This document shows, in pieces, positions 2,881-27,243 of a stretch of DNA of 64,000 bases (position 1 is its first letter; every line of letters starts with the position of its first letter). This DNA is from Natronohydrobacter sp. GTDB taxonomy: Bacteria > Pseudomonadota > Alphaproteobacteria > Rhodobacterales > Rhodobacteraceae. The notes beneath the pieces are model-generated. The model saw nothing but the letters and a program-made list of their open reading frames with translations. It searched no databases and was not told the origin of the DNA. The DNA is taken from positions 236,638 to 300,637 of the forward strand of contig JAUVXF010000001.1 in the NCBI GenBank assembly GCA_030603695.1, in the 5' to 3' direction. Made by a program: the position numbers and the translations under genes.

Positions 2881-3735
2881 ATGGAACTTGTCCTTGCGCT
2901 TGTGGTCTTGCTGGTGCTGGTGGTGCTTCTTGGCCTGAAGATCGTGCCGCAATCCGAGAATTTTGTGGTCACGCGGCTGGGGGCTTATCACCGCACGCTG
3001 GATGCGGGGGTAAGTGTGATCATTCCCTTTCTGGACAGGGTGCATTCCAAGGTTCCCGTCAATGATCAGGTGCTCAACGATATCGAATTGGAAGTGGTTT
3101 CGGCCGATAACGTGGTGTACGGCGCGCAACTTCTGGTGGTGTATCGGATAGAAAACCCCGAAGCGGCGGTTTTTCGCGTCAATTCCATCAATGCGCTGGT
3201 GATCGGGCTGGTGCAATCGCTGGTGCGTTCCGAATTGGGCAAGGTAGAGTTGGACGCGGTGCAATCGGATCGCGGTTCGCTGAATGTGGCGCTGCTGGAA
3301 GCGCTGGAGGATGCGGGCAAAACCTATGGCATTCGCATTTCCCGTTCCGAGATTACCGATGTGCGGCTGAATGAAACCACGCAAAAGGCCATGGCCGAAG
3401 TGCTGGCCGCAGAGCGCGAGCGCCGCGCCGCGATTACCCGCGCCGAAGGGCAGCGCCGCGCCACCGAACTGGCCGCCGATGGCGAGCTATACGAGGCACA
3501 GCGCCGCGCCGATGCCATTCGCGCCATTGCGCAGGCCAATGCAGAGGCCAATCAGATGATTTCTGCCTCTCTGGGCGGAGAGAATGCGCGCGAGGCGCTG
3601 ACATTCCAGACCGCGCGCATGCAGGTAGAGGCGCTGGAAGGGCTGGCGAAATCCCCCAATGCCAAGCTGATCATGCTGCCCGGCGGGCCATCCAATGCCT
3701 TCCGCGAAGCGGCGGCGATTTTGAAAGAGTTGTAA
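2881..3735 (+). CDS. SPFH/stomatin-like (QmcA-type) membrane protein
   Basis: IVPQSENFVVTRLGAYHRTLDAGVSVIIPFLDRV...; coiled AERERRAAITRAEGQRRA region. Confidence 0.9.
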   Translation: MELVLALVVLLVLVVLLGLKIVPQSENFVVTRLGAYHRTLDAGVSVIIPFLDRVHSKVPVNDQVLNDIELEVVSADNVVYGAQLLVVYRIENPEAAVFRVNSINALVIGLVQSLVRSELGKVELDAVQSDRGSLNVALLEALEDAGKTYGIRISRSEITDVRLNETTQKAMAEVLAAERERRAAITRAEGQRRATELAADGELYEAQRRADAIRAIAQANAEANQMISASLGGENAREALTFQTARMQVEALEGLAKSPNAKLIMLPGGPSNAFREAAAILKEL

Positions 3736-8281: not shown

Positions 8282-8353
8282 GCCTGCGCAGTTTTGCGCC
8301 TTTCGGGTTGCGCAAGATACATGTTTTCGCGTAAGCCCCTGTCAACTCGCATG

Positions 8354-8468
8354 GACCCGGTGCAATTCCGGGTGGCTCTTTCGGCCGCCTATCCGCCGAA
8401 TAACCTGAATAAACACCATGAAACCCGGCGCGCTGCCTGTCAGCCATAGCCGGTCAGGGACATTTTAC
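8354..8468 (+). promoter_or_regulatory. Candidate structured 5' leader upstream of SulP transporter
   Basis: ACCCGG(8355-8360)/CCGGGT(8368-8373) and GGTGGC(8371-8376)/GCCGCC(8384-8389) stems share bases 8371-8373, so they are mutually exclusive; ~185 nt intergenic region. Confidence 0.4.
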
Positions 8469-24092: not shown

Positions 24093-24204
24093 GAACCACG
24101 TTGGCAGGGATGATGCGCGCCGTTCCCGCTTTCATCTTGGAAAAAATATCCCCGCCGGAGGCGCAGGCCAGCCTTCCGGCGCAAGGGCTTGAAGGGGGGT
24201 GCGC

Positions 24205-25650
24205 ATGCGGGCGGTGATGCTTCAGGGCGCAGGCTCGAATGTGGGCAAATCGCTGCTTGTGGCCGGTCTGTGCCGGGTGGCGCGCCGGCGCGGGCTGTCT
24301 GTTGCGCCTTTCAAGCCGCAAAACATGTCCAACAATGCCGCTGTAACTGCGGATGGCGGAGAGATCGGGCGCGCGCAGGCCTTGCAGGCGCTTGCTGCCG
24401 GTCTGGCGCCGGTGACGGATATGAATCCGGTGCTGCTGAAGCCCGAATCGGACACCGGTTCACAGGTGATCGTGCAGGGCAAGCGGCTGACCACGGTTCG
24501 CGCGCGCGCCTATAGCGCGCTCAAGCCGCAATTGCTGGCGGCAGTGCTGGACAGTTTCGCGCGCCTGAAATCCGCGCATGATCTGGTGATCGTGGAAGGG
24601 GCGGGCAGCCCCGCAGAGGTGAATTTGCGCGCAGGCGATATTGCCAATATGGGCTTTGCCTGTGCCGCCGATGTGCCGGTGGTCTTGGTGGGCGATATAG
24701 ATCGCGGCGGGGTGATTGCGCAGATCGTGGGCACACAGGCCGTGCTTGATCCCGCCGATAATGCGATGATTGCGGGTTTTGTGATCAACAAGTTTCGCGG
24801 CGATCCCACCCTGTTCGACGATGGCTATGCCATGATCTCCAACCGCACGGGCTGGCGCGGTTTCGGGGTGGTGCCATGGTTTGCCGATGCCCATAAACTG
24901 CCCGCCGAAGATGCGCTTGATCTGCCCAAAGCGGCGCGCGGCGGCGGGGTGGTGGTGGCCGCGCTGGCCTTTTCGCGCATTGCCAATTTCGATGATCTTG
25001 ATCCCTTGGCGGCAGAGCCGTGGGTGGATCTGGTCATGGTGCAGCCCGGCCAGCCCATCCCGGCCGAGGCGCGGCTTGTCATCCTGCCCGGCAGCAAATC
25101 CACGCGCGGCGATCTGGCCTTTTTGCGCGCGCAGGGCTGGGATATCGATCTGGCCGCCCATCATCGGCGCGGCGGGCATATCTTGGGCATTTGTGGCGGC
25201 TATCAGATGCTGGGGCGCGTTATTTCCGATCCTGAAGGGCTGGAAGGCCCGGCAGGCGAGGCCACGGGCTTGGGCTATCTGGATATTGTCACCACCATGC
25301 AGGGCGACAAGCGGCTGGAGCAGGTTCAGGCGCGCCATGTGGCTTCTGGCTGTAGGTTTTCGGGCTATGAAATCCATATCGGGCGCAGCACTGGCCCCGA
25401 TTGCGCGCGCCCTTTCGCGCAGGTGGCGGGGCAGGATGAAGGGGCGATGTCGCCTTGCGGGCGGGTAACAGGGTCTTACCTGCATGGCATGTTCAGTGAC
25501 GATGGCTTTCGCGCGGCCTATCTGGCAGGGTTGGGGATTGCGCCCTCTGCGCTGCGCTATGGCGCGGGCGTAGAGGCCGCGTTGCAGGCGCTGGCAGATC
25601 ATCTGGAAACCCATATGGACTGTGACGCGATCTTTGCGCTGGCCCGCTAG
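24205..25650 (+). CDS. cobQ: Cobyric acid synthase
   Basis: [63 protein letters not shown]. Confidence 0.95.
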
Positions 25651-25700: not shown

Positions 25701-25869
25701 AGCCGCGCAGCGTCGGGTCGCGGTGCGGCGATTTTACCTTTAGGCTATGTCACTTTATGGCGGCCAAATCCGCGCGAAACTCAGGCTAAGCGCAGGATGC
25801 AGCCAAATCGCCGTGCCGGGGGGCGGCCCGGCGATGCGCGGCGGCCTTCGGCCTTGATTCCGCGCAGGG
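25701..25869 (-). repeat. MITE-like intergenic repeat, copy D (inverted)
   Basis: Closely matches copy C; reverse complement of A/B. Confidence 0.85.
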
Positions 25870-26017
25870 TGCGCTACCCCAAATGCCCCCAAATGCCGCA
25901 AATCGGCCCCGTGGGTTGTCTTGTGAAAGGCACAGATCGTCAAACAGCCCCCCTTTGATCCATCGCAAAGCGGGGTCTGGCGCATTCGGTCATGCTGGGT
26001 GCAAGTCTGTATCTGGA

Positions 26018-26102
26018 ACGAAAAGGGCGATGGCGCAGGGAGGAGGACGCACCATCGCCCAAATTTAAAAGGCTTTCGGGAGGAGTGCCTTTCAAGTTCG
26101 TA
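26018..26102 (-). ncRNA. CcsR/'cuckoo'-like sRNA candidate (two hairpins with CUCCUCCC loops)
   Basis: Minus strand: GGGCGAUGGUGCG-UCCUCCUCCC-UGCGCCAUCGCCC then UUUU; preceded by AAAGGC-ACUCCUCCCGAAA-GCCUUU. Confidence 0.7.
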
Positions 26103-26108
26103 AGTTAA

Positions 26109-26137
26109 ATCTAGTCCCGATGGCGGGCCAAGACAAG
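26109..26137 (-). promoter_or_regulatory. Candidate RpoH-type promoter for the sRNA
   Basis: Minus strand CTTGTC-N17-CTAGAT, ~7 nt before the first hairpin region. Confidence 0.5.
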
Positions 26138-26224
26138 CAGCTTCGCTGCATTGCGGCATCCCACCGCAGTTACTGCTTAAAATTTGGGCATATGTCCCGG
26201 AGATTGGCGAATATCAGGTATTGT

Positions 26225-26240
26225 ATTCATATTTATGAAT
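26225..26240. promoter_or_regulatory. Palindromic operator upstream of the RND efflux operon
   Basis: ATTCATAttTATGAAT, 38 bp before the adaptor ATG. Confidence 0.5.
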
Positions 26241-26277
26241 GTGTATATCGCTTGTAACGCCAGATAGGAGATGCACC

Positions 26278-27243
26278 ATGAAAACCCCACTTGCCACGGC
26301 TTTGGCCCTTGTCTGGCTTGCCGCGCCGCTTTGGGCGGAAACCCTCACCCTTGCCCCTCAGCCTGTCACGGATTGGAAAGCGGTTTTCGGGCAGGTGCAG
26401 GCGCAAACCCTGCTGCCCGCGCGTGCCCGGATTGGCGGGGTGCTGACAGAACTTGGCGTGGCCGAAGGGGATATGGTGGACGCAGGCCAGCCCTTGGCGC
26501 GCATCGAGGATGAAAAGCTTGATCTGCAACTGACAGCAATGGATGCCCAGATTACCGCGATCAGCGCACAACTAGACAATGCGCGCTCTGAATTGGCGCG
26601 GGGGCAAGAATTACTGGCGCGCGGCGTGACGACAGTGCAATTACTGGACGGGCTGCGCACGCAAGCCGATGTGCTGGAAGGCCAGCTTGCCGCCATGCAG
26701 GCCGAACGCGCCGTGATTGCGCAACAGGCCAGCGAAGGTGTGGTTCTCGCCCCCATTGGCGGGCGCGTGCTGACAGTGCCACTGGCCGCAGGCGCAGTTG
26801 TCATGCCGGGAGAGGCCGTTGCAACCCTTGGCGGCGGCGGATTTTTCCTGCGGCTGGCCATCCCTGAACGCCATGCCAGCGCCCTGCGCGAGGGCGATGA
26901 GATTGCCATTGCCACAGCCATTGCAGAATTTCCGGGCACGCTGGCGAAGGTATATCCGCAAATTGAAAATGGCCGCGTGATTGCCGATGTGGCCGTGGAT
27001 GCGCTGGATGATGCCTTTGTGAATGCCCGCGTGTTGGTGCGCTTGCCTGTTGGGCAACGCATGGCGCTTCTGGTGCCAGAGGGCGCAGTCACCACGCGGT
27101 CGGGCTTGGATTTTGTCACGGTAGAGGGGGCTTTTGCAGGCCCGCGCGCTGTTGTTCCGGGGGCGCGCCATCAGACAGACGCGGGCGTGATGGTGGAAAT
27201 CCTGTCCGGCCTTGCGGCGGGTGATACGGTGGTGCTGCCATGA
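26278..27243 (+). CDS. Efflux RND transporter periplasmic adaptor subunit
   Basis: Signal peptide, RIGGVLTELGVAEGDMVDAGQPLARIEDEKLDLQL biotinyl-lipoyl-like hairpin. Confidence 0.9.
   Translation: MKTPLATALALVWLAAPLWAETLTLAPQPVTDWKAVFGQVQAQTLLPARARIGGVLTELGVAEGDMVDAGQPLARIEDEKLDLQLTAMDAQITAISAQLDNARSELARGQELLARGVTTVQLLDGLRTQADVLEGQLAAMQAERAVIAQQASEGVVLAPIGGRVLTVPLAAGAVVMPGEAVATLGGGGFFLRLAIPERHASALREGDEIAIATAIAEFPGTLAKVYPQIENGRVIADVAVDALDDAFVNARVLVRLPVGQRMALLVPEGAVTTRSGLDFVTVEGAFAGPRAVVPGARHQTDAGVMVEILSGLAAGDTVVLP

Follow-up and report, generated by a model that had tools for sequence, protein, structure and literature searches.

A probable stand-alone relative of the CcsR/'cuckoo' small RNAs with its own predicted promoter in Natronohydrobacter sp.

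Is the anti-Shine-Dalgarno seed of the CcsR/'cuckoo' stress RNAs bound to a DUF1127 operon, or can it also be carried by a gene of its own? This question is raised by a locus in a 64,000-nucleotide stretch of the Natronohydrobacter sp. genome (here called the window), in which an earlier note had described, on the minus strand, two hairpins with CUCCUCCC in their loops, a T tract and no DUF1127 reading frame. The hairpins and the T tract are present exactly to the base, and the second stem consists, as had been claimed, of 13 bp including two G-U pairs. Judged from its sequence, the element is very likely a real sRNA of about 84 nucleotides with its own promoter, and its loop architecture together with covarying copies in congeners identifies it as a new, stand-alone relative of the CcsR/'cuckoo' family; the earlier assignment was thus right in kind. 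The coordinates of the features are collected in Table 1.

Table 1. Features of the sRNA locus and its neighbours (window coordinates)
Feature	Position	Strand	Basis
Predicted sRNA transcript, ~84 nt	26018..26101	-	fold z; homology block with closest relative ending at terminator; start placed from -10 box
Hairpin 1, 7 bp (extendable to 9), loop ACUCCUCCCGAAA	26067..26093	-	fold, covariation in relatives
Hairpin 2 / terminator stem, 13 bp with two G-U	26025..26060	-	fold, covariation in relatives
T tract of intrinsic terminator, 4 T only (short)	26021..26024	-	sequence
Predicted -10 box CTAGAT	26109..26114	-	position and alignment with stand-alone relatives; inference
Predicted -35 box CTTGTC, 17 nt from -10 box	26132..26137	-	alignment with stand-alone relatives; inference
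TGC-rich near-palindrome GCCGCAATGCAGC, presumed operator, centred ~-50	26145..26157	-	shared with DUF1127-CcsR promoters
Divergent neighbour, HlyD/RND membrane-fusion protein	26278..27243	+	Pfam PF13437/PF16576 on ORF 26239-27243; G153 homology covers start
Convergent downstream neighbour cobQ/cbiP	24199..25650	+	Pfam GATase_3/CbiA; linkage not conserved

Read on the minus strand, hairpin 1 has the sequence GAAAGGC-ACUCCUCCCGAAA-GCCUUUU (26093-26067) with the seed CUCCUCCC at 26078-26085 (-) within its loop, and hairpin 2 has the sequence GGGCGAUGGUGCG-UCCUCCUCCC-UGCGCCAUCGCCC (26060-26025) with the loop UCCUCCUCCC at 26038-26047 (-), followed by UUUU. That both loops contain the motif is true without reservation for hairpin 2, which carries the complete nine-base CCUCCUCCC, whereas the loop of hairpin 1 carries ACUCCUCCC, that is eight of the nine motif bases with the first C missing, and the same is seen in its only close orthologue (see below). 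In the predicted fold the second CUCCUCCC is exposed (unpaired probability at least 0.98 per base) and the first is partly closed, two of its eight bases tending to pair within the loop. The sRNA folds with a minimum free energy of -36.8 kcal/mol (z = -6.6), and none of 200 shuffled sequences was equally stable. CCTCCTCCC occurs once in the window compared to 0.44 times expected, a single-motif count that is by itself not significant. The hairpin pair, in contrast, is significant and lies beyond chance: hairpins with a CTCCTCCC loop and a stem of at least seven pairs were absent from 300 Markov-random windows of 64 kb, and the real window contains two of them, 40 nucleotides apart.

The genomic surroundings show how such an RNA might be transcribed. 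A DUF1127 reading frame is indeed absent upstream on the same strand, where the nearest gene is the divergently oriented HlyD-type adaptor gene of an RND pump, which is followed by an AcrB-type gene. Since this upstream gene is divergent, cobQ is convergent and no gene reads into the hairpins, the element constitutes its own transcription unit. An overlapping ORF of 134 amino acids (25755-26159, -) has no Pfam match and was taken as spurious. Judged from the positions of the -35 and -10 boxes, transcription would start at about 26101. A generic sigma-70 scan did not list a promoter for the sRNA, but the strict consensus used there need not suit an alphaproteobacterial promoter. In R. sphaeroides, RNAs of the CcsR type are expressed under stress through RpoHI/RpoHII. 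The -35 box of the window element contains the TTG of the published RpoHI/HII motif, while the -10 box lacks the TAT of this motif, which is present in the -10 box of the orthologue. It might also be possible that the hairpins serve a neighbouring gene merely as two terminators or as an attenuator and are not a trans-acting RNA, and hairpin 2 with its T tract is indeed shaped like an intrinsic terminator. However, with the upstream gene divergent no coding transcript enters the hairpins, cobQ lies on the opposite strand, promoter-like sequence directly precedes the hairpins, and a terminator has no need of identical loops on varying stems, which makes this reading very improbable.

Only one close orthologue of the window element is known, located in G153 (the MAG 'Roseinatronobacter sp. 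PBR18_bin58'), a member of the genus Roseinatronobacter like the host of the window. Both loci align in a single block of 388 nucleotides with 84% identity, which extends from exactly the terminator through the promoter into the adaptor gene; past the terminator no homology is left. The term 'stand-alone' used in the earlier note is thus well founded, with an own promoter region, a divergent upstream gene and a homology block that stops exactly at the terminator. Linkage to cobQ is not a conserved trait: an sRNA with the exact loops was found beside cobQ in none of the 29 relatives whose cobQ loci were compared. The window and G153 have identical motifs in both loops and also share promoter and operator, while the differences in the stems either turn G-U into Watson-Crick pairs or are located at the loop edge.

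The same genome also contains a canonical locus on another contig (C13; L009:1116-1415, -), in which an ORF of 70 amino acids with a DUF1127 domain (PF06568) is followed by three two-hairpin units. Double-loop matches were found in 35 of 37 congeners, mostly as three units in a row, and separate stand-alone copies are present in G153 (two), G121, G125 and G140. One double-loop match, in G045, was discarded, being located inside an apparent coding sequence. As the earlier note had required of a genuine family member, the loops are conserved in relatives: they are unchanged in the stand-alone copies of congeners, and the stems change in a compensatory manner. In an alignment of six stand-alone copies, 97% of the pair cells are standard and seven of 20 pairs have changed on both sides, with a covariation score that none of 500 shuffles reached and that was far lower in every slid control; relatedness may inflate the shuffle tests but is kept in the slid controls, and the structure was derived from the same six sequences and is therefore favoured over its slid versions.

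Genome G125 has additional, weaker stand-alone copies on the smaller contigs C5, C2 and C6 (L180-L182), in which the first hairpin is degenerate. The presence of copies on several contigs suggests a spread of the element between replicons.

Copies of this kind bear on a further explanation, namely that the locus goes back to a CcsR unit which left the DUF1127 operon by duplication, is now decayed or silent and serves no function by itself. The degenerate first hairpins on other replicons in G125 would fit this explanation, as would the first loop with eight of nine bases and the short T tract of the window copy, and in S. meliloti only one of six NfeR1 copies was reliably detected (PMC7143759). 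A decaying copy would, however, hardly keep both loops, promoter and operator in G153 while the 388-nucleotide block as a whole has diverged to 84% identity, nor would its stem changes be confined to G-U to Watson-Crick replacements and loop-edge positions. We therefore consider decay improbable, though less so than a mere terminator.

At the level of the family, the 231-nucleotide locus was searched as DNA in 120 genomes, of which only the own genome gave a significant full match. Named genomes were scanned for the operator plus both loops at the stand-alone spacing, so that loop conservation among the matches is given by construction and is not counted as evidence; the scan returned Roseovarius aestuarii, two Donghicola species, Mangrovicoccus, Marivita and Fluviibacterium as well as three Roseinatronobacter loci, a Rhodobacteraceae MAG and one MAG labelled Erythrobacter. 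In the stand-alone locus of Roseovarius aestuarii (L263, near 3583-3711, -) there are four loops, and the palindrome is present twice in head-to-head orientation.

How does the element relate to the described RNA families? With two adjacent hairpins that both present CUCCUCCC, it has the architecture by which 'cuckoo' RNAs are recognised, two (to four) adjacent hairpins with anti-Shine-Dalgarno loops. The mark of a CIN1 locus, a short same-strand DUF1127 ORF immediately upstream, is absent, and with two hairpins the element differs from alpha-r14/NfeR1 RNAs, which are defined by three CCUCCUCCC-loop hairpins and at least 58.8 bits. The expected resemblance to the Rfam models is borne out in rank only: ar14 (RF02344; 33.9 bits, gathering threshold 58.8) and CcsR1 (RF02791; 22.6 bits, gathering threshold 65.3) are the top two matches on this strand, but both remain below gathering. 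By score the element thus lies outside Rfam CcsR1 and ar14, and it lies outside any DUF1127 locus. The low CcsR1 score does not exclude kinship, since true CcsR paralogues of R. sphaeroides fail as well: in the R. sphaeroides genome used here (G052, which we take to be strain 2.4.1) CcsR1 scores 106 bits and its paralogues in the same operon reach 39-47 bits, below the gathering threshold of 65.3. Three stand-alone relatives within the genus obtain 44-57 bits with the CcsR1 model. In the same R. sphaeroides genome seven CcsR-like units follow the DUF1127 gene (C4:691697-692456), five of them nearly identical, whereas the literature has CcsR1-4.

CcsR1-4 of R. sphaeroides (RF02791, RSs0680a-d) are among the nearest described counterparts. 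They have about 80 nucleotides and likewise two adjacent CUCCUCCC-loop hairpins of similar length, RS0680a having been described as two stem loops with an anti-Shine-Dalgarno motif in each (PMC3927594), and they share pyruvate dehydrogenase as a target, which for the window sRNA is a prediction. They are, however, processed from a co-transcript with the DUF1127 gene (ccaF1), whereas the window sRNA is preceded by a promoter region of its own and comes without an ORF. The genetic organisation resembles that of NfeR1/alpha-r14 of rhizobia (RF02344), a stand-alone gene with the same seed, dispersed copies and a conserved upstream promoter element; NfeR1 blocks translation of transporter mRNAs and ntrB, and a translation block is likewise predicted for the window sRNA. 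NfeR1 differs in having three hairpins and about 120 nucleotides and belongs to a different bacterial order. AbcR1/AbcR2 of alphaproteobacteria also use anti-Shine-Dalgarno seeds and have a transporter-rich regulon, but their structure is different and the window element has no Rfam match to them. Finally, the element could be the orthologue of StsR, an 'orphan' sRNA of R. sphaeroides (PMC8625941) which depends on RpoHI/HII and has UpsM and rpoE as targets. StsR is a stress RNA of the same bacterial family and of similar length (72 nucleotides), and both stress and stationary phase induce it (PMC8307010). Orthology is nevertheless unsupported and hardly credible, since the R. sphaeroides genome contains no stand-alone double-CUCCUCCC match outside the CcsR locus: a model of the stand-alone sRNA recovered only the seven CcsR-locus units (E <=6e-6), and the next matches (E >=0.27) are fragments without the two-hairpin architecture. 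When R. sphaeroides was searched for terminator hairpins that combine CTCCTCC with T5, the single match proved unrelated.

A new feature emerging from the promoter sequences is a TGC-rich palindrome that is common to the window element and to the CcsR operons of nearly all congeners. In the window it is the only site of the GCCGCAATGCAGC type and is located just upstream of the -35 box. In the form GC[CT]GCA[AT]TGCAGC it is found about 72 nucleotides before the first loop in the stand-alone copies, and in nearly all congeners about 330 nucleotides before the first loop, upstream of the DUF1127 ORF. CcsR promoters of other genera contain a related TGCA-N6-GCAT / CTGC-N3-GCAG element; the first form corresponds to the LsrB box described for NfeR1 (PMC10746234), the second to the site at which PhaR is reported to act in R. 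sphaeroides (PMC12542648). Many CcsR promoters include this R. sphaeroides PhaR site, CTGCNNNGCAG, whereas its counterpart in the window copy, CCGC-AAT-GCAG, has one mismatch to it. The other operator-like sites of the own genome adjoin a gene for a urea-type ABC receptor, a gene for a small membrane protein and a coding sequence; since none of them is located beside a phasin gene, PhaR is not confirmed as regulator. The same TGC-rich palindrome is found at C14:17479-17492 (L127 ~1501-1514) between genes for an XRE-type regulator and a urea-type ABC receptor, names that were obtained from reading the sequence. That a single regulator, PhaR or an LsrB-like LysR-type protein, binds the palindrome and controls both the stand-alone copies and the DUF1127-CcsR operon in the Rhodobacteraceae is a tentative and, on balance, unlikely proposal. 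If true, the carbon-storage or redox state would be coupled through such a regulator to the repression, by anti-Shine-Dalgarno pairing, of pyruvate dehydrogenase and of carbon uptake. The shared operator points to a testable regulator for a group so far described as sigma-factor dependent.

Candidate targets were collected with genome-wide pattern searches. The genome contains 28 copies of CTCCTCCC on either strand, eight of them in sRNA genes. Sixteen of the 20 loop-complement copies outside sRNA genes are GGGAGGAG sequences 3-10 nucleotides before RTG (reversed-pattern control: three), a placement that is partly trivial since the loop complement on its own makes a good Shine-Dalgarno sequence. 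Fourteen of the GGGAGGAG sites start an open frame. The genes are pdhA and pdhB, encoding both E1 subunits of pyruvate dehydrogenase (NCBIfam equivalogs), those for five solute receptors (Peripla_BP_4, TctC, two Peripla_BP_6 and DctP), a LigM-type O-demethylase, a ribose-type permease, a CO-dehydrogenase-type FAD subunit, a carboxymuconolactone-decarboxylase-family protein and a pyridine-nucleotide-disulphide oxidoreductase, and two frames without useful assignment. The control set with the ribosome site AAGGAGAH contains many ribosomal proteins and few receptors. Hybrids with loop 2 have a mean energy of -20.7 kcal/mol compared to -12.1 kcal/mol in this control, a gap that follows from the motif and is thus not independent evidence. 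The informative part is the functional bias of the gene set, which rests on 14 genes; this compact predicted set of GGGAGGAG sites before start codons is new. Among the relatives examined, about half have GGGAGGAG upstream of pdhA and most have GGGAGG, as does R. sphaeroides. The pdhA/pdhB prediction agrees with the reported effect of CcsR1-4 on the pyruvate dehydrogenase complex of R. sphaeroides (PMC8307010); NfeR1 uses the same motif to repress translation (PMC10746234). The seed occurs six more times in the CcsR units of this genome; the targets are therefore not assignable to the window copy, since it shares its seed with CcsR.

The best explanation for the locus, to which we give a probability of roughly 80%, is an independently transcribed, trans-acting sRNA of the CcsR/'cuckoo' type that blocks ribosome sites with its CUCCUCCC loops. 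Transcription would start at the predicted promoter and be induced by a condition acting on the presumed operator. Either of the exposed loops could then pair with the GGGAGGAG Shine-Dalgarno sequences of target mRNAs and prevent ribosome binding, which would block translation of pyruvate dehydrogenase E1, of proteins for the uptake of carbon substrates and of one-carbon enzymes. As a result, less carbon would be taken up and less would enter the TCA cycle under whatever condition acts on the shared operator. The window copy would not add a new target set but a separately tunable dose of the seed of the three CcsR units.

In the Rhodobacteraceae, the CcsR-type seed thus appears not to be tied to the DUF1127 operon but to be encoded also in a gene by itself that shares the presumed operator, which would allow the dose of one anti-Shine-Dalgarno seed to be varied independently. 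For such a seed, a short and concrete list of predicted targets (pdhA, pdhB, solute receptors, LigM) has been obtained. Elsewhere in the window, at 8350-8405 (+), a sul1 RNA (RF03058) was detected with 73 bits, well above gathering.
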